IMG/VR virus record: IMGVR_UViG_3300028548_005929
Coordinates: 1-28,115 of that record
Source: a virus
Length of the DNA stretch: 28,115 bases
Strand: one strand, 5' to 3'
Shown in pieces: positions 1,502-20,101 of the stretch. The translations under genes were made by a program, and so were the position numbers. Numbering within the stretch: position 1 is the first letter of the stretch; each line of letters starts with the position of its first letter. A model generated the notes under the pieces. It worked only from the letters and a program-made list of their open reading frames with translations, was not told where the DNA came from and ran no database searches.

Positions 1502-1682
1502 TTTTCAAGTAGACATTACCCGAACCATAACTGATCGTTACTTTGTAACCGCTAAAGATTGGGAGGAGGCTGAAGACATGGCTCTTGAAGGCGGTGACTT
1601 CTACGCTGAGTTTGTAAAACCCTGCCAGACAAAGTATGGCAAGGAGATTGTGGATGTCGAGGAGATTGATGAAAGTCCTTGA
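1494..1682 (+). CDS. Small hypothetical protein, similar in pattern to the 9054 gene product
   Basis: I chose the ATG at 1494 (MPNFQVDITR) because gagga lies 9 nt upstream; a longer frame from 1467 lacks such a site. The 62-residue product has a beta-strand, a helix centred on a WEEAEDMALEGGD segment, and a final strand ending VDVEEI. The product of the 9054 gene shows the same layout (strand, FVVEAKTQEEAL helix with GGD, strand ending NIREV), so the two may be distant paralogues. The gene overlaps the preceding stop by 8 nt and the methyltransferase start by 14 nt, consistent with one transcript. Function unknown. Confidence 0.65.
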   Translation: MPNFQVDITRTITDRYFVTAKDWEEAEDMALEGGDFYAEFVKPCQTKYGKEIVDVEEIDESP

Positions 1683-2544
1683 CCTGTTCTCAGGCATTGG
1701 CGGCTTCTCATTAGGCTTAGAGTGGGCGGGAATGTCCACTGTGGCCTTTTGCGAACGCGACCCCTACTGTGTCAAGGTGTTAAACAAACACTGGCCTGAC
1801 ACACCAATCCACAACGACGTTAAGGAATTAGATGGTCACCAATACCGAGACTCAGTTGAGCTTATTTGCGGAGGATTCCCCTGCCAGCCTTTCTCAGATG
1901 CAGGGCCAAAAAACGGCGCGAGCGATGACCGTCACCTCTGGCCTGAGATGTTTAGAATTATCAAAGAGTGTCGGCCTAGATGGGTCATTGGCGAAAACGT
2001 TTCTGGCTTCATCAACATGGCGCTCGACAATGTGTGCATTAACTTGGAGAGTGAAGGCTACGACGTCAGGACGTTCGTACTTCCAGCTTGCTCCGTCGAT
2101 GCTCGACACCGAAGAGATCGCGTCTTCATTGTGGGCTACTCCAGCGAGTGGAGAGGGCGGCGGAAGACCGAGCAACAAGAACCAAGACGGGTGGCATTGG
2201 ACGGGGACGAAATGGATTCGACCAAACGGAACCAAGTGCCAGACCAGCCTATCGGATCAGATCAGAATGTACCCCACACCAACAACCCGCGACTACAAAG
2301 GGGGGCGGTCACCTGCCACGCTGAAAGCCAAGGGCCGACTGCCGAGCAACTCATTGCCGGATACAGTGAACGCTTTAGCGGGGGGAACTGGCCCTCTGAA
2401 TCCAGCATTCTGCGAATATCTCATGGGGTTCCCAATCGGGTGGACAGAGTTAAAGCGATAGGTAATGCGGTTGTCCCGCAACTAATTAAAGCAATCGGTG
2501 AGTTAGTGCTTGCCGCCGACAAGGAGATGGAAGATGAAAGTTGA
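1669..2544 (+). CDS. C5-cytosine-specific DNA methyltransferase (orphan)
   Basis: Transfers a methyl group from S-adenosylmethionine to cytosine C5 in DNA. All main motifs are present in order: motif I DLFSGIGGF (residues 5-13, SAM binding), motif IV GGFPCQPFSDAG with catalytic Cys72, motif VI ENV (109-111), motif VIII RHRRDR (146-151), a variable target-recognition stretch (about 157-250), then GVPNRVDR (253-260) and motif X GNAVVP (265-270). At 291 residues it is a compact but complete member. The ATG at 1669 follows gaggag with about 5 nt spacing; a longer frame from 1636 is not needed. No restriction endonuclease gene is adjacent, so protection of phage DNA from host restriction is the likely role. 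Bases 1832-2461 carry a second long frame in +1. Target sequence cannot be predicted. Confidence 0.95.
   Translation: MKVLDLFSGIGGFSLGLEWAGMSTVAFCERDPYCVKVLNKHWPDTPIHNDVKELDGHQYRDSVELICGGFPCQPFSDAGPKNGASDDRHLWPEMFRIIKECRPRWVIGENVSGFINMALDNVCINLESEGYDVRTFVLPACSVDARHRRDRVFIVGYSSEWRGRRKTEQQEPRRVALDGDEMDSTKRNQVPDQPIGSDQNVPHTNNPRLQRGAVTCHAESQGPTAEQLIAGYSERFSGGNWPSESSILRISHGVPNRVDRVKAIGNAVVPQLIKAIGELVLAADKEMEDES
1832..2461 (+). CDS. Overlapping +1-frame protein inside the methyltransferase gene (MGFPIGWT-type)
   Basis: A 209-residue frame lies wholly inside the methyltransferase gene, shifted +1. It has its own ribosome binding site, AAGGA at 1822-1826, five nt before ATG 1832. It does not look like noise. 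It contains SLFAEDSPASLS (10-21), an STWRST...LTW segment (61-72), GRSYFQLAPS (80-89), YPTPTTRDYKGGRSP (147-161), and ends LNPAFCEYLMGFPIGWTEL (189-207). I recognise this series, particularly the closing LNPxFxExLMGFPIGWT motif, from proteins annotated in phages and prophages next to cytosine methyltransferases. The closing motif is the +1 reading of the methyltransferase GVPNRVDRVK segment. Function unknown. It may be a genuinely dual-coded gene, or the database family may consist of translations of the same overlapping frame. Family recognition is from memory. Confidence 0.55.
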   Translation: MVTNTETQLSLFAEDSPASLSQMQGQKTARAMTVTSGLRCLELSKSVGLDGSLAKTFLASSTWRSTMCALTWRVKATTSGRSYFQLAPSMLDTEEIASSLWATPASGEGGGRPSNKNQDGWHWTGTKWIRPNGTKCQTSLSDQIRMYPTPTTRDYKGGRSPATLKAKGRLPSNSLPDTVNALAGGTGPLNPAFCEYLMGFPIGWTELKR

Positions 2545-2852: not shown

Positions 2853-3158
2853 TTATCTCTTAGTTGCTAATTTTTTCATCACAGACTTAAATCCAGGAAG
2901 ATTCTTTTTTGACACCTTTCTGTTCTTCATTAGCAATCCGCAAGACTTAATCACTTGATCATCATCCCCGTAATTCTTTTCTAGAAAGTCAGCAATGTCC
3001 TTGAGCATCATCATTGCAAGCTGGTCTTTGATGTTTGCCTCCAATCGCTTTAGGACACTGCGTAAGTGATTAGCTGCAATGCACTCGCTGGGATTGATAT
3101 CCCCAGCTTTGTGCATCCGCTCCACAAAATTAGAAGTTCCAGTCATCTTTGGTCTCAT
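2853..3158 (-). CDS. Hypothetical helical protein downstream of the primase-helicase
   Basis: I do not recognise this 101-residue basic protein. It appears all-helical, with a Met/Leu-rich helix around QLAMMMLKDIADFLEKNYG and a Lys-rich C-terminus (KKNLPGFKSVMKKLATKR), which would suit nucleic-acid contact. I chose the ATG at 3158 (MRPKMTGTSNF). A longer frame from 3218 would overlap the helicase gene by 89 nt, whereas this start overlaps it by 29 nt and has a weak purine site (gaagag) upstream. It is the last gene of the minus-strand replication run rusA, helicase, this gene, so a replication-accessory role is possible but not shown. Confidence 0.65.
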   Translation of the reverse strand: MRPKMTGTSNFVERMHKAGDINPSECIAANHLRSVLKRLEANIKDQLAMMMLKDIADFLEKNYGDDDQVIKSCGLLMKNRKVSKKNLPGFKSVMKKLATKR

Positions 3159-4911
3159 GAAAATCTCTTCTACCCGTTGATCTCGCAACTTGCGCGAACG
3201 GTTCAGGGTTATGTTCACGGTCTCTGTACCTCCCCGTCACCGGATCGTACTGAAGTTCCGCACTGCCTATTGAACCAACCCACTTGAATCTGCATTTCCA
3301 GCTATGTACCTCGATGTGCTCACCTAATCTGTGAACTGTTATGCCGCAATCGGCTTTAGCAAACCATGCAGCAGACCCGCTGATGTGGTTGCCGTTTGGG
3401 ATAGGCATCTTGCCCTGATCGTTTGCCCTCATTTTAGCAGGGTGAGCAATGAACCAGATGTGAAGGTCATGACTTCTAGCAAACTGCACCATACGAGTGA
3501 GCATTTCGCTGATCGCTTGATGCTCGTTCTCGCCGCTGTTCTGGGCTATGTAATTATAAGGATCAATCACCAAGCCTCGGCAACCAAGCCTCATGACAGC
3601 CATTTTTGTACGCTCTATGATGCTGTCTATCGTTGCCGCTTCACCATCCTTGGAATCAAGAAAGGCAAAGTGATCATTGACCCAGCTTCTAGACTCCTTC
3701 ATCTCATCAGAAGACATTCGCTCATGATGACCCTCAAAGAATGGCTTACGAGCGTACTTCTCAGACAGCTTGATGATGTGCATTGCTGGCGGGTTCTCAA
3801 AGCTTGCGATGGCAAACTTCCAATCTTCTTTCTCGGCTAAGTTAACTAGTACCGCGTCGATGAACTCAGACTTACCAGATCCAGGGAGCCCCGTTACTAC
3901 AGTCAATTGACCTTGAAGCACAGTGTAAACATCGTCTAAGCCACGGAATCCGGTAGACATACCCTTCATCAAACCCTTTTCGTACAGGAAGGCAACGTCA
4001 TCAGCGTAGTCATTCGCTGAATACACGCCGACCAATGGGGTTGGACTCGCCTGATTGATGAGATCTACTAAACGCTCTTTGCCTTGATCACGAAGGACAT
4101 CATTCGCATCCTTGCAACCTTCTGGTAGATCTAGGTGGTAGCACTTAGCTCTGCCGACTCGGCGCATGATCTCTTCACCAAGAGCTTGCCCTGGCTCATC
4201 GCTGTCAACAGCCAAGATAATCTTTTCTGCCTGTTCAAACACATCCTTGGCAGCCCAGAGATAAGCAAACTTTCTGTCTTCGGCAGCATCAACACGCTTG
4301 TTGCTGACCTTCTGAGGAGCACCATTAGGAACACTGACTACTAAAGTATCGGGGCAGTCGCCTAGTGCTGACGCAATTGCCAGCGCGTCAAACTCGCCCT
4401 CAGTAATGATGATTGTTTTTAGGCCATCAGATGGTGCCTGCTCAATGCCCCAAAGCGTTTGCGCGGAACCGTCTTGGGTAAACTGCTTATCGCTTACCGC
4501 TCTCCATTTGATGGCTTCATTGTCGCCGTAGACAAAGCCAATGGCATCCAGTTCACCGCCGTTGTGAAAGTATTTGGTTCCACCAACCACGTTATATCCA
4601 CCAATGGTCTCAGGGTCGATACCCCTCTCAGTCAGGAACGCATTCATCAGGCCTTTATCTGATGTCTTTGGCTTACTGATGGCTTTTACGGTGGCTGTCT
4701 GCTCTGAAGGAAACCCATCGAAAGAACTAATTTCCCTACTGACCTTCCCCGATACCTCGCAGTGCCAGCAGCGATAGAGTACGCAGCCGCCATCAGGCTG
4801 GATGTTAAATGTCTTTTCGTTTTTCTTTTTACGTTCCGGCGAACATACAGGACAAACGTGCCTACCTGCCTCGTTGCTGGTCACAAAATATTCTAAATCT
4901 GATTGATTCAT
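3130..4911 (-). CDS. Bifunctional DNA primase-helicase (T7 gp4-like, DnaB-family)
   Basis: Makes RNA primers and unwinds DNA ahead of the phage replication fork. The 593-residue product has a zinc-binding primase domain with C20, C23, C48 and C51 (CPVC...CWHC). A TOPRIM domain follows at about 165-275, with ITEGEFDA around E171 and the acidic VDSDEPG motif. The C-terminal RecA-like helicase has Walker A GLPGSGKS (Lys347), Walker B GLVIDPYNYIA, and IWFIAHPAKM, the DnaB/gp4 motif with its conserved His. Length is close to T7 gp4 (566). I chose ATG 4911 because AAGGAGG lies 6 nt upstream; a TTG at 4938 is less likely. It follows rusA after a 129-nt gap with palindromic repeats that may control it, and it overlaps the next gene by 29 nt. 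Confidence 0.95.
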   Translation of the reverse strand: MNQSDLEYFVTSNEAGRHVCPVCSPERKKKNEKTFNIQPDGGCVLYRCWHCEVSGKVSREISSFDGFPSEQTATVKAISKPKTSDKGLMNAFLTERGIDPETIGGYNVVGGTKYFHNGGELDAIGFVYGDNEAIKWRAVSDKQFTQDGSAQTLWGIEQAPSDGLKTIIITEGEFDALAIASALGDCPDTLVVSVPNGAPQKVSNKRVDAAEDRKFAYLWAAKDVFEQAEKIILAVDSDEPGQALGEEIMRRVGRAKCYHLDLPEGCKDANDVLRDQGKERLVDLINQASPTPLVGVYSANDYADDVAFLYEKGLMKGMSTGFRGLDDVYTVLQGQLTVVTGLPGSGKSEFIDAVLVNLAEKEDWKFAIASFENPPAMHIIKLSEKYARKPFFEGHHERMSSDEMKESRSWVNDHFAFLDSKDGEAATIDSIIERTKMAVMRLGCRGLVIDPYNYIAQNSGENEHQAISEMLTRMVQFARSHDLHIWFIAHPAKMRANDQGKMPIPNGNHISGSAAWFAKADCGITVHRLGEHIEVHSWKCRFKWVGSIGSAELQYDPVTGRYRDREHNPEPFAQVARSTGRRDFHETKDDWNF

Positions 4912-4950
4912 GTGCATCCTCCTTGTGAATCGTTTCAAAAAATGTTAAAT

Positions 4951-9647: not shown

Positions 9648-12600
9648 CTATTTTGTTCTTCCAACGTTGCGATCATAAATTTTGTTAAACCTAGCTTGTT
9701 GATCGGCAATATCCTCGTACATTTTTTGTTCAATTGTAGCGGCTCTAATTGCTGTCTCTGGAGATGTATCAGCCATTCTCCTAGCGGCGGCTCTTCTTTT
9801 CCTTAAAGCTTGAAGTCTTTTTTCTGTGCTAGACAACGTTGAGATCATAGATAAATAAATTGAGTTTTCTTTTCGGTAGTCGATTCTTTCTCTTCCCCGT
9901 AAAGAATCAATCCTAGAGGATTTTTGCTGTATTTTTTTGCGTCGCTCGTAATAATCTGATTGGCTTTGCCGCATATCCGGCTCACCCTTGATGCGCCTAA
10001 AGAATGGTATTTCTTTAGTCTTTAACTTTTCGCCCTTGCTCCACTTGTCGAAAGCGTCCATGTTTCTTAGGCCAAATGTTCCAGCCCCGCCAAACATAAA
10101 CTCTGTCATGTGTTCTAATGTGTCTGGCGATATATCAACCGCCCCTGACTCTTGCTCATTACCGTTAAATAGTTTGTTTAAATTTTCAGCAACGCTAATA
10201 AAAGGCGCTCTAGTGGAACCCATATGCATCTGCGAATCAGGCAACTCTGTGCCAAAACCTACGTTTGTTCTGTAGATGGGAGAACCAAAGAAGTTCTCGT
10301 TGGACATAATCTCTATAGCAGGCTGAGAGATGGTTGGGAACGCCGAAGCTGGCCCGAAGCCGATAGGAGAGAATGACCCAGCGAATGCGCTTAATACGTC
10401 AGCAGAACCCCTTGTTACAGACAAATTGCCCTTAGCAATTTCATAGGCTGTTTGACCTACAACGTGAAAAGTGTTGTACCCATAAGGTAAAGGAATCGTG
10501 TAAAACTCCTTTCCGTTTTCAGCCATGATGACCATGTTTCGCTCTTTGACATAGTCAGGTATCTCGGAATAATATGAGCGCCCCGTTTTGGGGTTCTCCT
10601 CACTTTCTTCCTCTCCCCTCATGGCAGACAACGCACCCATCATGATTAGGCCGCCTACTGCACCCTGCTTGACTCTACTTGCCTCTTTACTAAAAGGGTT
10701 GCCTGTTGGGCCAAATAGTCCTCTAGCAAAGTTTGCAGTACCTTGAACGCTTGCGTTAAAGAAAAGGAATGTTGCGTTAAGAACGTCACCAGCCATACCC
10801 TTTCGGTTAAAGTTAATCGTCAAGTTTTTAGCTAAGCTTGCCGCTGTCTTTACTGCTTCAGCCCTTGGTACGCCAGAATTTAGCATCTCATCTCTGGATG
10901 CCTTGAATGTTGCAAGCCGTACAGCGTTTTCTACTGCTGAGTTAGAGTCTTCAATAAAGTCTTTAACCGAGTTAAACCTACTTTGAAAGTTGCCTTTAAA
11001 CGTGCCATTCGCCATGTCAACCATAGACTGAATGCTTTTAATTTGATCCTCTGGAGGGCGCGAGTGGAACCAATCAGCTTTTGCGCCAGCTTGCATAAAC
11101 TCTAAAAAGTCAGCTTTATCTTGAGGACTCATCCCTGTAACAAAATCGGTTAAGCTTCCTGTCTTTGGGTTGTACCGGCGAAGTCCTTTGTAGAAAACGC
11201 CCATAGAAGGGACAACGTCAAGCATGACTTTACGGACTAGCTCTTGATCCCTAGCCTTGCCCTGAGACATATCTTGCTCACCAAGGATGTTAAATATTGC
11301 CGTCTGCACATCGCGAGAAAAGTTACCAATAACAAACTCTGGGTTGAGAGATGTATTGACCATAGAAAGCCAGCGGTTAACTACGCTAAACTTTTGCAGC
11401 AGTCCGTCAACAGTTCCTACGTCAAAAGAGATAACGGCATCTCTCATTCTTTTGTCAGTTATTTCTACATAAACCTGTTTACCGTCAACTTTGACTCCAA
11501 TTAAATCGTTGTCCATTGTTGGGGATAAAAAGTCTGGCTTAACAGTAATTAACTGCAAAAAGTCTTTTCTGCTATAGCCTTCTGGAACCTCCGTAAACTT
11601 TTGACCCTGCATATCTGGGTCTTTTCCAACATATGTATATTTCTTCTCAAACCCTCTAGACATTCTTGGATCGTCAGGAGAAATAACGCGCCAAAACGAG
11701 TTGTCAGGCGAAGATTTAACTAAGTTTACTAACCTTTGACCAAACTCTTTGTTCTTTATGGAGCGAACAATTGCTCGTTCCGCGTTGAGCATTATGTGTC
11801 CAAGAGGAGACTGAGCGGCAGATTCTCGCCCCATAGCTCTTAAAGACTCCTTACCCTTAGTGCTTAGCCCACTAGAGGTAATTACCGACTCAGCGTAATC
11901 ATCTTCAATTTCTTTGCCTCTCAGCGGAGCGTAATACTTGTAGGCGCTGTTAATAACGTCAGCATTTTCTCTAGAAATAAGACCACCCGCCACGGTAGTG
12001 TTCATTGTTTCTCTTACTATTTGATCAACATCTTGAGCTACATCTAAAAACTTTTTAGCTTTGCTGTTACCGCCACTCCATGTTCCTGTAGAATCGTTCC
12101 ATGTCATGCCATAACGATTTCTCATTCTGTCTTTGACAAAGCTATCAGTTAAAGGTTCACCCGTCTTCAAGGAACCAGACCCAGGGTTAACTTCTGGATC
12201 TCGCTGCGAGTCTCTTAGGTTTATGGTCTTGTTGCGCTCAATAGCGTGTCTCAAGGTAAGAAACTCGTCTATATCGTTAAGGTCTAATCCATTTTTGGCT
12301 ATTTTGTTTGCAAGAGGCTTCTTTCTGTTCTCTTCAAACTCTTGACCAGCAAACCCAATCTTACCAGGAACGCTTTCTTCGCCCCTGTATGGTGATTCTT
12401 CTTCTGTAAGAGGCTTTAAGCCTAATCCTTTACGCCAATCGTTGATTTGCTTCTCAACATTCTTTAAACCAACAAGCTTGTCTTGTATTTGATATACAAA
12501 CTTGTTGCCAAGAGTATGGCTACCAGACTGAATAGAAAGCGGAGTAGCCCCATCCAACATCTCTTGCTGGGCTACAGCTAATTTAATTTCTGGGTTTTGA

Positions 12601-15600
12601 TCTGCGGCCTGTATTATTGACCCTTCTGGGTTCCGTTGAGCAAACTCTTCTGCGGCTTGTTGCCCTTCCTCGATTCTTGATGCGAGTATCTCTGTATTAG
12701 GCGTTGCATCGCTAGACTCCCTGCCTGCTTCGCGTCTTTTTCTAAATCTTTCGAGTTGTCGTTTTGTAATTTCTGAAATTGTTTCATTGGTTGATGCTCC
12801 TCGGTATCCAGCCTCTTTGGCTGAGTTAATCATGTAGAACCATCTCATTGCTTGTAGAGATGCTGGGTCGTTGGTCTTGCCAGAGATCTTGTCGTACTCT
12901 TCCTTAAAAACTGTAGAGAACTCTTGAAACAGTTTGTCCTCATCTACAGTCACAGGAACGCCTGTGTTCTTTTCAAACAGCCCTTCAAAGTAGCTGCGAA
13001 TAAACCTAGATTCCCATACGTCTATTGTCGTGTATCGTGAGTCGCCCGTCAAGTTTAGAGTGTAGGAGCCAATCTTCTTACCAAAGATAAACATCCTCGG
13101 TATAACCTCATCTTGTCCTGTCGCTTGCTTTACAAGAGACTTTATCGCGCTCATGCCAGACACATTACTTTTGTAACCCATCTGCCTATTAAACTGCTGA
13201 AGCTCTTTTGCTGTAACGCCTTCACGAAGGTAATCAACAGCAGCTTTAACTGGATTAGGTGTATTTGAAAACTGTTGAATTAGCGAGTCAAAAACCTTTA
13301 GCGACATAGCTTTAGTTGGAGCGGTTGTGCCTGAAATTTGAAAAGGAGAGCTTGCTACAACACGGTTACCTTTGGGGCTTAGACCTAACTCAATGTCGTT
13401 AAGGTTACCTTTCTTCTTGTACAATTCAAAAAGATTTAGAGCATCACCTACGTTTGCAGATAGCACCGTGGCTGGAGATGTAAGGCCATTTGACACTTGA
13501 TAAAACAACATATCGTCATCAGTGATTGTTCCATAATCTCCCTCAAGGGCCGCCTTAATTGCCCTCATATCCTCGGCATAATAATCCGCATACTTAGGAT
13601 TCTTTGATACAAACGTCTGAATATCCTTGATAGCCCTTTTTGAGGCCGTTCTTACTTTGCTTGGATCTACTGTACCTTTTACCTCAGACATAACTTTAGG
13701 CCAGAAGTTTCCAAAGAACTCTTCTTCTACCGCAGAGTTATAGTCTGCATACTTTGTTTTTGCTCTTTCAACTAAGCCTTCTATAGGGCTGGACGATTTA
13801 GCCATCATTATGTTTGAAGAAGATACGGTTGGGTCTTCAACGACCTCTGCACTTTCTTGAGCTTCTTCAGGTAAAGGGGCAACCCTATCAAAGGTCTCAT
13901 CTATTTCTCTGCCAATACCTCTTTCAGGGACGGCTTGTAGGCCTTTCTCTAATGCTTTTAAGGATCTAATTTGACCACGCTTTCTGCCGCCAATTTCTCC
14001 AGATTCAAGCCTATCAAGAACACTCTCAAAGGACTGAAACCCTGTTCCGTTTAATGCATTTCCAGTTTTTTCAAAGAAGCTAAACATTCGATTGATGAGG
14101 CTTCTTGGCTTACCAGATATTAACGATCTATCTTTTCTTGCGTACCTAACAAACTCAGCAACAGCCTCTTCCATTTGGCTGACAGGGGGCAGGTTGTCAT
14201 AACGCCGTTGAGCGTTGTTATAAAACGTCTCGTTGCCTGTGCCAGGGAATATTTTTTTCTTAACGGCGTTTTCTAAAAGCCGCCACTCAGCATCTTCCCA
14301 AAGATCAAGGTCTCTGACAGCGTGAACCACTTCGTGATCAAGAATCTCAGCTAATGCCGCCTCTCTTGCTTCGGGACTCTCGTCCCTAGCCATCATATTG
14401 GCCCTGTCTAAAGCAAGAAATGTAGTTCTTGGAGAGGAGTTGTAATACCCAGCAGCCGTTTTAACGACATCTGTCTCAGATTGGTCTCCTTCTAAGATTA
14501 GCTGACCATCTCTAGTAACAGGCCCATACTTTAACGCATCAAGCACCCTTAACCTGACATCGTCTAGACCAAATCCCTTTAAAGTCTTTGACAGTTTTTG
14601 CTCTAACTTTTGAGCCTCTTCAGAAACATTTTCTTTGTAAGGCTCGATTTCAAACGTTGGTGGTTGAGGTGGCGACGGAAGCATAGTCAGTGCTGGAACA
14701 GTATCGTCAGCTTGCACTACGCCAGAATTTTTTAATGCTTTTTGCAAAGCCGTGGCAACTACTCGCTTACGCTTCTCACTAGAAACATCAGGAAGCTGCG
14801 ATTCAATATTTGCTACAGTCCCATCACCTGTTGCGGTCACATAGGTTAAGGCTTCGTTGTACTGCCTTCTTGTAAACGACTTGGGCCTAAAGTCAGGCAA
14901 AGATGCGGCAGCATCACCAGGGATGATTGGAAGCTTTTTTAATTCACTAACAAGAAACAATCTTTGTGACGGGGACATCTTGCTAACATTTGACTCGTTA
15001 ACTATTTGCTCAAAGGCATAGGACAGTTGAGGAGAGTCAACGTCAGAGACTATGTTTTTTGACTCTAAGACAGACTTTATCTCAGCCTTAGTAGATCTAT
15101 CGTCTTGATATTCTTTACGTCTACGGGCCGCCTCCGCGCCCACAGAGCCAAAATCAGTAATACCCTCTGAAGCGTCAGGTTCTTTTGCTCCAACTAACAC
15201 ATCAAAAACTTTAGGATACTTGTCACCAAGTATTAACTTAGCTTCTCTTTGAGTAAACTCAGCTTTTTCCGGCTGTCCATTTTTTCGTCGCTCAAAGTTT
15301 ATTTGTTGGGCGGCGGTCATATTAGACAGCGGTTTGTATATCTTTTGACCACGATCAGTTAAAGGAGGAACCCCATACTGTTGCTGATGCAAAGCATCAA
15401 TACTCAGCCCTTCAACAAAGTTAGATCCAAAGCCAGTTGTGGTGTTTGCGGCCTCATTCAAAACTTCCGCTGTAATTGTGTGGCCTTGAGGCCTTACAAG
15501 CTTTTGCCCAACCATGAACAACGATTCGGACTGTTGAGGGTTGTATGCATCTGGAGCTAAATCCAAAGAGTCGATTACCGAATTGGTAATGTTCCGATTA

Positions 15601-17228
15601 ATAAGTTCTTGGTTTAGGTTTGATGCAAGGTGGGCTGCGGCCTCGTACTCGACAGCAGATGACCCATACTCTTTGCCATCAATAGAATGTACAACTTTAT
15701 ATTCATTTCTAGCGCCTTGCGGCGTTGAAACTTGCTCTGTAATAACTTTAAAATCACCCGCATCAGGAAACACGCCCTCACTTAATGATGCATCTTTAGC
15801 TATCTGTGAGGCATATGTCTTACCAATACCCTTGTATGTCTCTGTATTGCTAGTGCCGCCATAAGAGCCAACAGTCGGATCAAGTTGTTGTTTCGGGTTA
15901 AATTGCTGACCTCCACGGACAGAAGACCCTATAGCTTCTAGCTGCTGCCCTCTAGTAGGCACTGCGTCAGCATCTTGTCCTTGCTGATATTCAAATTCCT
16001 TGCTTAACTTTTCTCTTAATTCCGCCTCATGCCGAGCTATGTCGGCTTTGCTGTAATAAATTTCTCGTTGATTTTCTTCTTCTTCTCTTAAAACAGCTTC
16101 TTTTTCTTCTAAAGACGATTGAACAATCCTGTTTCTGCGGTTAGCAACACCAACAGATACTCCATCTACCAACGCGCCAGCGCCAAAGCCAACAGTAAAG
16201 TCATCCCACAAACTTTCACCGACCTCAATGCTGTCATCGTACATACCAACTTGAATAGCATCTTGAGCCAGACTATTTACGACTTCTTGTAGTCCTTCTT
16301 TTGCTCCCGTACCTAAAGAACTTTTAACGCGCTCCATGCCGTTCATTACTCTAGACACTTCTTTTGATAGGCGGATTTGTTGGTTAAGTAAGTTTGTTGC
16401 TAGAACCTCATCACCAGCATCAAGAGCTTTTTGCCTTTGCGAGTTAAGCGCCTCTAGTCGCTCTCTTGGTTCTTTAATACCGCGAACTTTTTTCAACACA
16501 CCTAAAGGTGTAAGCGCCTCCGTAGCGCCAACAACACCGCCCAAAAGAATTGAGCTATCAGCAGTATCTTGATCTATCTCAATACCCTTGGCCCTAGATG
16601 CAGCTATTCTTTGAGCTTGATCATCAGCGCCAAAACCAGAGCCTGATGCGATTGTAGATCCTGAACCAATAACTCCAGCAGCTTTAGCACTAGCGCCAAG
16701 AGCGCCAGCAACTTTAGCCAAACCTAAGCCAGGAACAGCAAAAGAAGCAATAGATCCTAACGCCTCAGAAACTTTAACCGCATAGCTATCTCTATATGCT
16801 TCATCAACCCCAAGGGCTGAATCCAATGCTTGCTTGCCTTCAGTAGCAAGCCGAATAATTTCGTTTTCTTCGCCGCTATCTATTAAGGATTCTAGACTGG
16901 AACCAACATCTTCAGCGCCTAAATAGGTAGCAAGATCCCCTGCTTTGTTTGTTGCAGCATCAGCTAGGTGGGCAAGACCGGCACCAGAAGATAAAAGTCC
17001 TTGCCCTAAGCCTCTGACAGGTGCAGCAAGCAACTCTGACGGGAGCCCTAGAGCGTAATCAACAGTGCTCATCTCTTCATATTCTTGGTTAATGCCAAGC
17101 TCTTTGAAGTATGTTTCTCGCTCTATTTTTCCGTCATAAAACTTATCGTAAAGACTTGTGGCTAAATCGTAATCAGATAAATCGTCATACTCTGGGTGTT
17201 GCTCTCTAAAAGAAACTAAACCTGCCAT
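9648..17228 (-). CDS. Giant polyvalent virion protein with zincin motif and LPD38-like domain (gp16-position ejection protein)
   Basis: A 2526-residue protein, probably packaged in the virion and injected with DNA. The N-terminus has Gly/Ala-rich hydrophobic stretches (about 60-110, 150-200 and 335-360) suited to membrane interaction, then a charged coiled coil (about 365-420). HEVVHA at 965-970 with EEAVAEF 50 residues later fits a zinc metallopeptidase (zincin). From about 1935 to 2330 (NPEFVIGNFSRD, VENAVRLATF, FFNASVQG) it resembles LPD38, a domain of phage polyvalent proteins. The C-terminus is Lys/Arg-rich helix. ATG 17228 overlaps the preceding stop (TGATG); a TTG one codon earlier is less likely. 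As last gene of the late run it holds the T7 gp16 position but is twice as long, and I see no transglycosylase motif. Domain names are from memory. Confidence 0.8.
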   Translation of the reverse strand: MAGLVSFREQHPEYDDLSDYDLATSLYDKFYDGKIERETYFKELGINQEYEEMSTVDYALGLPSELLAAPVRGLGQGLLSSGAGLAHLADAATNKAGDLATYLGAEDVGSSLESLIDSGEENEIIRLATEGKQALDSALGVDEAYRDSYAVKVSEALGSIASFAVPGLGLAKVAGALGASAKAAGVIGSGSTIASGSGFGADDQAQRIAASRAKGIEIDQDTADSSILLGGVVGATEALTPLGVLKKVRGIKEPRERLEALNSQRQKALDAGDEVLATNLLNQQIRLSKEVSRVMNGMERVKSSLGTGAKEGLQEVVNSLAQDAIQVGMYDDSIEVGESLWDDFTVGFGAGALVDGVSVGVANRRNRIVQSSLEEKEAVLREEEENQREIYYSKADIARHEAELREKLSKEFEYQQGQDADAVPTRGQQLEAIGSSVRGGQQFNPKQQLDPTVGSYGGTSNTETYKGIGKTYASQIAKDASLSEGVFPDAGDFKVITEQVSTPQGARNEYKVVHSIDGKEYGSSAVEYEAAAHLASNLNQELINRNITNSVIDSLDLAPDAYNPQQSESLFMVGQKLVRPQGHTITAEVLNEAANTTTGFGSNFVEGLSIDALHQQQYGVPPLTDRGQKIYKPLSNMTAAQQINFERRKNGQPEKAEFTQREAKLILGDKYPKVFDVLVGAKEPDASEGITDFGSVGAEAARRRKEYQDDRSTKAEIKSVLESKNIVSDVDSPQLSYAFEQIVNESNVSKMSPSQRLFLVSELKKLPIIPGDAAASLPDFRPKSFTRRQYNEALTYVTATGDGTVANIESQLPDVSSEKRKRVVATALQKALKNSGVVQADDTVPALTMLPSPPQPPTFEIEPYKENVSEEAQKLEQKLSKTLKGFGLDDVRLRVLDALKYGPVTRDGQLILEGDQSETDVVKTAAGYYNSSPRTTFLALDRANMMARDESPEAREAALAEILDHEVVHAVRDLDLWEDAEWRLLENAVKKKIFPGTGNETFYNNAQRRYDNLPPVSQMEEAVAEFVRYARKDRSLISGKPRSLINRMFSFFEKTGNALNGTGFQSFESVLDRLESGEIGGRKRGQIRSLKALEKGLQAVPERGIGREIDETFDRVAPLPEEAQESAEVVEDPTVSSSNIMMAKSSSPIEGLVERAKTKYADYNSAVEEEFFGNFWPKVMSEVKGTVDPSKVRTASKRAIKDIQTFVSKNPKYADYYAEDMRAIKAALEGDYGTITDDDMLFYQVSNGLTSPATVLSANVGDALNLFELYKKKGNLNDIELGLSPKGNRVVASSPFQISGTTAPTKAMSLKVFDSLIQQFSNTPNPVKAAVDYLREGVTAKELQQFNRQMGYKSNVSGMSAIKSLVKQATGQDEVIPRMFIFGKKIGSYTLNLTGDSRYTTIDVWESRFIRSYFEGLFEKNTGVPVTVDEDKLFQEFSTVFKEEYDKISGKTNDPASLQAMRWFYMINSAKEAGYRGASTNETISEITKRQLERFRKRREAGRESSDATPNTEILASRIEEGQQAAEEFAQRNPEGSIIQAADQNPEIKLAVAQQEMLDGATPLSIQSGSHTLGNKFVYQIQDKLVGLKNVEKQINDWRKGLGLKPLTEEESPYRGEESVPGKIGFAGQEFEENRKKPLANKIAKNGLDLNDIDEFLTLRHAIERNKTINLRDSQRDPEVNPGSGSLKTGEPLTDSFVKDRMRNRYGMTWNDSTGTWSGGNSKAKKFLDVAQDVDQIVRETMNTTVAGGLISRENADVINSAYKYYAPLRGKEIEDDYAESVITSSGLSTKGKESLRAMGRESAAQSPLGHIMLNAERAIVRSIKNKEFGQRLVNLVKSSPDNSFWRVISPDDPRMSRGFEKKYTYVGKDPDMQGQKFTEVPEGYSRKDFLQLITVKPDFLSPTMDNDLIGVKVDGKQVYVEITDKRMRDAVISFDVGTVDGLLQKFSVVNRWLSMVNTSLNPEFVIGNFSRDVQTAIFNILGEQDMSQGKARDQELVRKVMLDVVPSMGVFYKGLRRYNPKTGSLTDFVTGMSPQDKADFLEFMQAGAKADWFHSRPPEDQIKSIQSMVDMANGTFKGNFQSRFNSVKDFIEDSNSAVENAVRLATFKASRDEMLNSGVPRAEAVKTAASLAKNLTINFNRKGMAGDVLNATFLFFNASVQGTANFARGLFGPTGNPFSKEASRVKQGAVGGLIMMGALSAMRGEEESEENPKTGRSYYSEIPDYVKERNMVIMAENGKEFYTIPLPYGYNTFHVVGQTAYEIAKGNLSVTRGSADVLSAFAGSFSPIGFGPASAFPTISQPAIEIMSNENFFGSPIYRTNVGFGTELPDSQMHMGSTRAPFISVAENLNKLFNGNEQESGAVDISPDTLEHMTEFMFGGAGTFGLRNMDAFDKWSKGEKLKTKEIPFFRRIKGEPDMRQSQSDYYERRKKIQQKSSRIDSLRGRERIDYRKENSIYLSMISTLSSTEKRLQALRKRRAAARRMADTSPETAIRAATIEQKMYEDIADQQARFNKIYDRNVGRTK

Positions 17229-20101
17229 CAATCTTGCGCTCCATACGAGCCTCTTAGTCCGAGAGGGTCGTTTTCACGACCTTTTGTTGGATTATTATTT
17301 TGATTAGTTTGCATATTGCCAGTTTCAACGTTACCGCTAGACCTATATAAACCGAATCCCCGCATAAGCTCTTCAACATACTCACGAATTTCTGTTGGAG
17401 ATGGAGTTGTAACGCTACTGTCAATGAAATCTTGTGTTTGAGTTGATATCATCGGGGCGTATATAGATAGCTGTTGTGTGTGACGCATCCGCTCAGAATC
17501 ATTTGCCAGATCTTTATATCTTTCCGCTGATATCATTGTTGTAAGCTGATCAAGAGCAAACTTTCTGTCTGCCTGAGTGTTAGCAACAATAGCTTTAGCT
17601 GCCTCTGTCTCAACGCCAGCCATAGCCTTTGCAGCATCAACATCCATTCCAGCAGCAACAAGCTCTGCTCTTCTGTCGGCATCGTAAGACTTAACGATCA
17701 TTTCATTAGTTGCTTGCCTGCCCCGCTGCCTAGACTCTTCAGTCTTCATACCAAGAGTCATTTTTGCCTCTTGCTGAGACATCATCATCCGAGTAGAAAG
17801 CTGTTCTTCGGCGCTTGCTTCTTTTCTTCCTTGCCGCCTAATGTCAGCCGCAGTTTTACCAGCCTCAGAAATACCTTTAGAAAGATTGCCTCCAGCTATT
17901 CCAGCACCCAACTGTATCAATGCTTGAGCGCCAGCTTCTTTCCTAGCCTCGTCGCGTATTGTTTGCGCCCTTGCTTCTTGACTTTGAATCAAGCTTGAGT
18001 AGTCGGGCGCATACTTGCCAAAGTCAGGAATATAGCCTTTTATCAGGCTTTCGTAGTTGGCGGTTTTGTTTCTTATCTTGTCTGCGGCAGTAGAAATATC
18101 GCCTATAGCAGTCCTTGCTGACTCATAATTAACATCTTCAGATGCAATATTAAGATTTTTTATACCTGCTTGAGCGTCAGCATAAACATTGCCGGTAGAT
18201 TCAAACTTCTTGCTTTCTTTATCAACCTTTTCATCAACATTTGTCTCTGACAATGCAGTTTTAATAGTTTCGGCGTCAAGTTTGTTTACCTTTTGCCCGT
18301 CTTCTCTTATCGCGTTACTTTCGTCGCTTGCAGCAGCAAGCGCCGTAGCTACATCTACATTTTCTTTAATTACCTTGCTGTTATCTTCGGTTACAGCGTT
18401 AGAAAGTATCCTTGCTGACCCATCAGTGTTTTGTCCAACAGACGGTTGTTCTGCTCTATTTAATTTATCCGTAATTAACGCTGCAATACCGTCATCTTCA
18501 GGATTGATTTCAGTCTTAGACGCAGAGTACATATCTATAAGAGCTTGCGCTTCTTCCTTGTTGCCGTCCTGATAAAGCTTCCCAGCTCTTTCACGCAACT
18601 CAGGTGGGAATCCGGCTGGCATTTCGATTGAATCGAATCGAAATGCTTTGCTACCAGCCTCTAGATTTAATTCTGGATATCGTCGTTGAGCTTCTTCAAG
18701 TGAGATTGTTTCATTAGTGGTTCCAAGATCTTTTTTAAAGCCGCCAGACCCTCTCTCGGCCTGTCTATCTCTCAAGGCCCGTAAGTCTGTCGTTACATCT
18801 TGAGTTGGCGTTTCGTTTTCTAACTCTGATAAGCGGATAGCTTCTGCATCACGGGCGTTAGCGTTGTCCCTCAAAATATTTGAGAGTAAAGGATAGCCCT
18901 CTTCTAGTGTTGGTTTCTGTGTTTGCAGGTAAGCAACATAATCGTCAAAAGTTTTTGGAGCCTCGTTGTTAGTTGGAACCCCGTCTGGGAACTTGGCGCG
19001 AATGTATCCTTCAGCATCATCAGTGTAGGCATCAGGAGCTTGAACGATTCTTTGCTGTCCTGACGCTGTCCCTTGAATTTCTCTTAATCTTGCCGCTTGT
19101 GCAGCATTCATTCTCGCTTGATCATCACCTTGCCGCCCTGAACTCGATGAATCAACACCACTAAGGCCGGTAGGGAACTGAAGTCCCCGTATTCTTTCTT
19201 CAGGCACAACTACTTCAGCGTTGTTATTAACAACTTGATTGTTAGATTCCGCTAAAATGCTTTGAAGCATTTCGCCTACAGGAGCGTCGCCTTGACCCTG
19301 ACCTTTCATGGAGGCTAGTTTTGCTCTAATTGCATCAGCAGTGCCTGCTGGGGCTTGAAATGGGTTGCTTCTTGTGTCAGTTGACTCTTGTGGCGTAGGC
19401 GCTTTAAACATTGGAGGATTTAAAGGCTCAAAGTCAGTACTTACACCTTGAGTAAACCTGTCTAGAGGGTTGTATCGCGACTCGGTAAGACCCTCTATAT
19501 AAGATCCAACCCTTGATGGATTAATCAACTCATTAAGATCTGAAAATTTTGAAGCATCAGCTTGCTCTTGAGCGGTACCAAAAATTGAGTCTACATCTTC
19601 TTGTGTAATCCCGCCGATCCTACCCTGCATATCTCTTACGGCCTCGCTGCCCCCAGGAAGCTCAGCCAAATAGGCTAGTCGCGCTAAGTTATTTTCGCGC
19701 TCAGCAAGTTTTGCGTCTTCAGAAGACATAGCATTAAGATAAGGGTTTGGAATAGTTAGTCCTTGAGCCATACGCACAACGCCACCACTGTACATTCCCA
19801 TTTGAGGTGCTGGCTGCTGCATAGGCATTTGACCGCCCATAGGAGGCATAGGCCGCCCTTGAGGCTGACCCATAGATGCCATTTGCCGTTGAGGCGTTGT
19901 AGGATTCACGCCCAGAAGCTGATCTTTTACAGTGCCTTGAGGCTTTTGATTCTGAGCATAACGCGCTCGCATATCCTTACGGCGTTTAATCTCAGACACA
20001 ACAAGGAACTGAGGCGCTTGGCCTGAAGGGTTCTGAGCTTCTTTTTGTAAGGCTGCATCAGGCAAGCCTTTGATCATGTCTTCTGTGTCAATTATATTCA
20101 T
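17228..20101 (-). CDS. Large helical virion protein (gp15-position ejection protein)
   Basis: A 957-residue protein likely to be an internal virion or ejection protein. The N-terminus (TEDMIKGLPDAALQKEA...APQFLVVSEIKRRKDMRAR, residues 6-46) matches, from memory, the start of structural proteins in marine phages. Residues about 60-110 are Gln/Pro/Met/Gly-rich, and most of the middle is polar and probably disordered. About 690-880 is Ala/Glu/Arg-rich and should form long helices or coiled coil, interrupted by a short hydrophobic LIQLGAGIAGG at about 725. The gene begins 2 nt after the 674-aa gene ends and its stop overlaps the next ATG, so it is cotranscribed. Assignment as gp15-like rests on position, size and helicity, not on sequence identity. 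Confidence 0.7.
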   Translation of the reverse strand: MNIIDTEDMIKGLPDAALQKEAQNPSGQAPQFLVVSEIKRRKDMRARYAQNQKPQGTVKDQLLGVNPTTPQRQMASMGQPQGRPMPPMGGQMPMQQPAPQMGMYSGGVVRMAQGLTIPNPYLNAMSSEDAKLAERENNLARLAYLAELPGGSEAVRDMQGRIGGITQEDVDSIFGTAQEQADASKFSDLNELINPSRVGSYIEGLTESRYNPLDRFTQGVSTDFEPLNPPMFKAPTPQESTDTRSNPFQAPAGTADAIRAKLASMKGQGQGDAPVGEMLQSILAESNNQVVNNNAEVVVPEERIRGLQFPTGLSGVDSSSSGRQGDDQARMNAAQAARLREIQGTASGQQRIVQAPDAYTDDAEGYIRAKFPDGVPTNNEAPKTFDDYVAYLQTQKPTLEEGYPLLSNILRDNANARDAEAIRLSELENETPTQDVTTDLRALRDRQAERGSGGFKKDLGTTNETISLEEAQRRYPELNLEAGSKAFRFDSIEMPAGFPPELRERAGKLYQDGNKEEAQALIDMYSASKTEINPEDDGIAALITDKLNRAEQPSVGQNTDGSARILSNAVTEDNSKVIKENVDVATALAAASDESNAIREDGQKVNKLDAETIKTALSETNVDEKVDKESKKFESTGNVYADAQAGIKNLNIASEDVNYESARTAIGDISTAADKIRNKTANYESLIKGYIPDFGKYAPDYSSLIQSQEARAQTIRDEARKEAGAQALIQLGAGIAGGNLSKGISEAGKTAADIRRQGRKEASAEEQLSTRMMMSQQEAKMTLGMKTEESRQRGRQATNEMIVKSYDADRRAELVAAGMDVDAAKAMAGVETEAAKAIVANTQADRKFALDQLTTMISAERYKDLANDSERMRHTQQLSIYAPMISTQTQDFIDSSVTTPSPTEIREYVEELMRGFGLYRSSGNVETGNMQTNQNNNPTKGRENDPLGLRGSYGAQD

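Follow-up and report, generated by a model that had tools for sequence, protein, structure and literature searches.

The window, a 28,115-base virus record (IMGVR_UViG_3300028548_005929) analysed at its full length, very probably carries, in two overlapping reading frames, the two chains of a single heterodimeric C5-cytosine DNA methyltransferase. Alpha, read in frame 0, would supply the AdoMet-binding and catalytic motifs I-VIII with the catalytic cysteine, together with the C-terminal motif X. Beta, read in the +1 frame, would supply the small domain, made up of a presumed target-recognition region and motif IX. Both chains are predicted to come from one message, beta by internal initiation at its own ribosome-binding site. 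They would then assemble, each probably needing the other for activity, into an enzyme in which beta touches the DNA and chooses the target site, with flipping and methylation of the cytosine left to alpha. The enzyme may serve to mark the phage DNA or to shield it from host restriction.

The methyltransferase ORF occupied positions 1636-2544 of the plus strand; the likely start of alpha was the ATG at 1669, with GAGGAG 4 nt upstream, giving 291 codons. The +1 ORF (1832-2461, plus strand, 209 aa, ATG start) was nested inside it, and 630 of the 876 nt of the methyltransferase gene (1669-2544) were shared by the two frames. A preliminary description of this DNA had reported a 209-codon +1 ORF preceded by AAGGA-5nt-ATG and covering 72% of the methyltransferase gene, and all of this was confirmed from the sequence. 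The segments quoted there as conserved (SLFAEDSPASLS, GRSYFQLAPS, PTPTTRDYKGG and LNPAFCEYLMGFPIGWTEL) were all present in beta. The features of the locus are as follows.

1659-1664, plus strand: Shine-Dalgarno (SD) sequence GAGGAG of alpha
1669-2544, plus strand: alpha, the C5-cytosine methyltransferase in frame 0, with motifs I-VIII and X and without IX
1681-1704, plus strand: motif I, DLFSGIGG, in alpha
1822-1826, plus strand: SD-like AAGGA of beta, 5 nt upstream of the ATG at 1832
1832-2461, plus strand: beta, the +1 protein, put forward as the second subunit (a small domain that includes motif IX)
1879-1896, plus strand: catalytic motif IV, PCQPFS, in alpha; its +1 reading falls within SLFAEDSPASLS of beta
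1976-2104, plus strand: beta residues 49-91, a conserved helix and beta-hairpin on bases shared with motifs V-VIII of alpha
From 1993, plus strand: motif VI in alpha, frame 0
2104-2127, plus strand: motif VIII, RHRRDRVF, in alpha; downstream of it constraint passes from alpha to beta
2132-2395, plus strand: residues 101-188 of beta, presumed to recognise the target (WATP..., PTPTTRDYKGG)
2146-2436, plus strand: alpha residues 159-255, a hydrophilic, poorly conserved spacer between motifs VIII and X, over the recognition part of beta
2396-2443, plus strand: motif IX, LNPAFCEYLMGFPIGW, in beta, overlapping GVPNRVDR of alpha
2461-2478, plus strand: motif X, GNAVVP, in alpha, 65 nt past the start of motif IX

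A DNA primase/helicase of phage type adjoined the methyltransferase on the opposite strand (3130-4938, minus strand; phrog_239, E 1.3e-87). Further along the window lay an ORF of 2527 aa (9648-17231, minus strand) whose last ~950 residues matched large PHROG families of unknown function.

When the codons of the overlapped part of frame 0 were permuted synonymously, the +1 frame held 5.1 stops on average and stayed open in a fraction of 1.5e-4 of 20,000 trials (about 1 in 7,000). When frame 0 was resampled from codon usage, the probability of an open +1 frame was 1e-4. A chance ORF was rejected on the synonymous shuffles and on stop counts. Residues 7-206 of beta matched phrog_1008 in PHROG (E 2.1e-29), six relatives of beta matched the same family at E 2.6e-54 to 8.8e-17, and 74 phage records matched beta at E<1e-5. 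A Pfam search with beta gave no match. The family match, the phage records and the recurrence of the locus bore out the earlier claim that the +1 product is a real, conserved phage protein.

The methyltransferase had been described as intact. This was true of motifs I, IV, VI, VIII and X, which followed one another in alpha in the order of PF00145, but motif IX was absent and the profile match (E 1.1e-48) covered only positions 1-169 of 324. A canonical motif IX was looked for in frame 0 of alpha and not found there, and it was missing from the alpha frame of the aligned relatives as well (0/19). The last conserved segment of beta, LNPxWVEWLMGFPxGWT, is motif IX, a short match; its form in the window is LNPAFCEYLMGFPIGW, and its counterpart in M.HhaI is LHPRECARVMGYPDSY. 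The preliminary description had correctly recognised this closing motif as the +1 reading of GVPNRVDRVK in the methyltransferase. In an hhalign comparison with single-chain phage methyltransferases, the end of beta fell on their motif IX (E 1.8e-4, probability 48%). No match was obtained when the motif IX peptide alone was searched, and no chain was found when the beta profile was compared with PDB sequences. Because frame 0 is without motif IX and beta ends in it, beta is better read as a subunit than as the modulator of the methyltransferase that had been suggested; on our reading, it is probably the missing piece of the enzyme and not an unrelated regulator.

Matches to the second protein also overlapped a methyltransferase frame elsewhere, in each of three scans. 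Relatives of the methyltransferase were sought in IMG/VR without reference to the second protein, and 80 loci were fetched; the same protein lay in register +1 in 80/80, one of which (L056) had an indel shifting both frames. When the scan was seeded with the closing motif alone, 79/80 loci had the +1 overlap on a methyltransferase frame, the exception (L213) holding two copies in tandem. The scan of bacterial genomes gave 80/80, and these counts, from bacterial and viral loci picked by similarity, are not prevalences. Host groups in the bacterial scan included Bacillota, Bacteroidota, Chlorobiota, Pseudomonadota, Deltaproteobacteria, Acidobacteriota, Chloroflexota, Actinomycetota, Verrucomicrobiota, Synergistota and Marinimicrobia. 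The nested arrangement recurs in phages and prophages across about ten bacterial phyla, as read by us from record titles, many of them of metagenome bins. Both frames were already annotated as genes in Paenibacillus phages and in phage K1ind1, and the overlap sequence of one relative, L001, was identical to that of the window. Carriers of the locus that are in culture include Paenibacillus phage Tadhana and Lacticaseibacillus phage R9.1.

The partition of the motifs recurred along with the overlap. In pattern pairs of motifs IV and IX from the methyltransferase-selected set, motif IX lay in +1 with the frame open back to motif IV in 72 of 73; the other sets gave 34/42, 38/41 and 64/67 non-duplicate loci. 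Motif X was mostly in frame 0, and the commonest offset from IX to X across loci was 65 nt, as in the window. Single-chain enzymes differed in this respect. In mycobacteriophage Papez and Gordonia phage Trax, a motif IX of this type was part of a single in-frame chain with motif X after it, and the +1 frame was broken in both. The monomeric phage methyltransferases L353, L354 and L355, with a canonical motif IX in frame, had 11, 18 and 12 stops in +1, and the +1 frame was likewise broken in L351 and L357, where motif IX was in the methyltransferase frame. A broken +1 frame beside a conserved methyltransferase, the case singled out beforehand as telling against the proposal, was found only in enzymes that, like these, have motif IX in frame and in one that is split otherwise (L356).

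In 81 loci selected on the methyltransferase, +1 stops were absent between a point ten codons upstream of motif IV and motif VIII, compared with 113 expected from synonymous permutation, whereas +2 stops in the same region were close to expectation (433 vs 444). In 71 of the 81 loci the +1 frame had, ahead of motif IV, a start codon for beta with an SD sequence matching at four or more bases, as against 24% of permuted controls. At conserved codons of alpha, third-base entropy at fourfold sites was 1.36 bits inside the overlap (16 columns) and 1.81 bits outside it (5 columns; p 0.009); synonymous variation of the methyltransferase was thus reduced in the overlap, as the check proposed in the preliminary description required. 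Some residues of beta ahead of motif VIII were nearly fixed among 101 loci (W72 in 100%, L86 in 99% and S36 in 94%), a conservation test partly confounded by descent. By column entropy, 69% of beta columns varied less than the synonymous null, and the +2 frame was likewise below its null (-0.42 vs -0.50 bits). Because this test was confounded by shared descent and linked constraint, the stop counts and the fourfold-site test were relied on instead.

The nonsynonymous-to-synonymous ratio relative to opportunity (N/S) was estimated from six close pairs. Up to the end of motif VIII it was 0.23 for alpha and 0.96 for beta, the latter from 39 substitutions; past motif VIII it was 3.27 for alpha and 0.15 for beta. 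Between L001 and L003, 22 of the 28 substitutions past motif VIII altered alpha and were silent in beta. Constraint switches frame at motif VIII: alpha is conserved before it and beta after it. Beta residues 101-188 are presumed to form the recognition region because they lie between motifs VIII and IX and because the N/S of beta is 0.15 there. Over this part of beta, alpha residues 159-255 had a GRAVY of -1.20 and aligned poorly among relatives; this stretch of alpha would be mostly a spacer, kept open to reach motif X.

These data bear on two other readings of the overlap. The open +1 frame could be an untranslated by-product of codon and amino-acid conservation in the methyltransferase, whose strongly conserved motifs I-VIII do drag some +1 residues along. 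However, such a by-product would not explain the loss of stops from +1 with +2 at expectation, the reduced synonymous variation in the overlap, the low N/S of beta past motif VIII, in a stretch where alpha can vary freely, or the 11-18 stops in the +1 frame of monomeric methyltransferases. This reading has already failed the stop and substitution tests, and we give it practically no weight. The second reading, raised in the preliminary description, is that the overlap is kept because it drives a faster change of DNA specificity. It would fit the fast-changing segment of alpha between VIII and X and the differing length of the recognition part of beta among relatives. However, the changes in alpha there are a synonymous shadow of the constraint on beta, and the presumed recognition part of beta is strongly conserved in close pairs, which makes this reading very unlikely.

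Dual coding was most clearly evident in beta residues 49-91, which are probably dual-coding with motifs V-VIII of alpha; beta residues 1-48 are probably constrained less. AlphaFold modelled beta alone with low confidence (pLDDT 64.6, pTM 0.30), with a helix at residues 49-64 and strands at 69-76 and 82-89, and comparison of the model with PDB structures gave no useful match. The alignments submitted for structure prediction excluded rows taken from loci in annotated records. In a relative that is a natural fusion, L125, residues 1-253 of the AlphaFold model (27 sequences, pLDDT of the recognition part mostly under 50) aligned with residues 12-296 of M.HhaI (Z 17.0). Motif IX of HhaI, residues 273-290 by our count from the sequence, is inside the aligned range, and the alignment thus places the end of beta within the range of HhaI motif IX. 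On balance, we tentatively favour a further reading, in which the locus is a gene that is mobile, dual-coding and deeply conserved and has spread over about ten bacterial phyla. Motifs V-VIII and the helix-hairpin of the partner would occupy the same bases in different frames, so that neither chain could change alone, and the hairpin would be an overprinted domain through which beta docks on alpha.

The boundary between the two chains varied among relatives. In L090/L110, L111, L113, L137 and L323, motif X was in the beta ORF and alpha ended before motif IX; with motif X moved into beta, alpha closes early. In mycobacteriophage Bumblebee11 (L356:1126-2221), the motifs were divided between adjacent genes, gp75 (I-VIII) and gp74 (TRD-IX-X), which overlap by 23 nt. 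The +1 frame under gp75 had stops, and gp74 resembled the beta of L090 (E 5e-7). From this layout, gp75 and gp74 appear to be one enzyme with an AquI-like split. Both are recorded as "DNA methylase" genes, and the same pair was listed for several other mycobacteriophages. In five other loci (L125, L236, L328, L344 and L346), motif IX was in one ORF with motifs I-VIII and motif X was outside that ORF; these may be indel fusions, decay, assembly errors, pseudogenes or real variants.

Such variants are informative on whether beta belongs to the enzyme. If beta were a phage protein foreign to the enzyme, acting as its regulator or inhibitor or in some other role, with the overlap as ordinary overprinting, one could understand the independent conservation of residues 49-91, the lack of a counterpart to residues 1-48 in monomeric methyltransferases and the absence of any PDB or Pfam match to beta. 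We consider this improbable: beta ends in the very motif missing from alpha, motif X can shift into the beta ORF, a separate TRD-IX-X gene exists (L356), and there are in-frame fusions. The natural fusions bear in turn on programmed +1 frameshifting, in which translation would leave the alpha frame near motif VIII to yield a fused I-VIII-TRD-IX product and no separate subunit. They have the same order as that product, and nearly all loci hold both frames in register +1. However, beta has its own start and SD far more often than the permuted controls, the +1 frame is open and conserved well before motif VIII, where a frameshift product would have no use for it, and the product would be without motif X. 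Frameshifting is therefore also improbable, and two chains that assemble into one enzyme remain our preferred reading.

Several relatives had unusual structures. Two Paenibacillus plasmids (L011 and L013) carried additional PTPxxxD and motif IX segments downstream of the first, those of L011 in a separate ORF; these are possibly duplicated recognition modules. In L095, L058, L041 and L137, beta was about 320-600 codons long and contained several WPTPxAxD repeats, mostly between motifs VIII and IX, suggesting a recognition region that has grown by repeats. In L228 (IMGVR_UViG_3300037487_000141, 2290-2345), a run of GA dinucleotides in the overlap gave RERERER whichever frame was read; around this run the frames were out of register, possibly through phase-variable slippage or an assembly error. 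The shifted frames of L056 and L228 could each reflect an error of assembly, a pseudogene or a true variant. In L022 (MT835926.1, 846-1500), the methyltransferase was seemingly interrupted ahead of PCQPF by a segment ending in HNC, which has the look of an intein.

Few same-strand overlaps exceed 600 nt and are also conserved across phyla, and assays of both chains are feasible because this class of enzyme is well studied. Should the two-chain reading hold, many C5 methyltransferases of phages and prophages that are now annotated as single genes would be half-enzymes, with the partner chain unannotated, labelled "hypothetical" or lost to gene callers that penalise overlap. Cloning alpha heedless of the beta frame, for example with codon optimisation, would then yield an inactive enzyme. 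The steps from one chain through an adjacent split to nested frames would also make the origin of a dual-coding gene traceable. In the mainly open-access literature searched, no paper described this overlap in phages; what is new here is its breadth (about ten phyla) and a probable double constraint over motifs V-VIII.

Existing annotations reflect the arrangement only in part. The label of phrog_1008 is "DNA methyltransferase" and is silent on a second chain encoded in +1. The "Mte8-like protein" ORF28 of Escherichia phage K1ind1 and TADHANA_55 of Paenibacillus phage Tadhana are +1 genes inside a C-specific methylase gene, as in the window, but the records either state no relation to the methyltransferase or name a second DNA-cytosine methyltransferase.

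Among known enzymes, the closest is M.EcoHK31I, of which M.EaeI is an isoschizomer. The small polypeptide of EcoHK31I was reportedly traced by Lee, Kam and Shaw in 1995 to an alternative frame inside the large gene; the window has a small chain in an alternative frame as well. In M.AquI, one chain holds motifs I-VIII and the other, small subunit holds motifs IX and X together (PMC3404938), whereas the window keeps motif X in alpha. The AquI type of split after motif VIII is that of L090, L111, L113, L137, L323 and the Bumblebee11 gp75/gp74 pair. In M.EcoHK31I, the large chain has motifs I-VIII and X and the small chain has IX only (PMC3404938), and the window shares this partition; we group the two on anatomy, that is, on the division of the motifs, with kinship understood in that sense alone. 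Two differences stand beside the likeness. M.EcoHK31I belongs to an E. coli restriction-modification system and the window holds a phage gene. The predicted TRD of M.EcoHK31I is in the large subunit and not in the small one (PMC3404938), whereas the constraint past motif VIII in the window points to beta.
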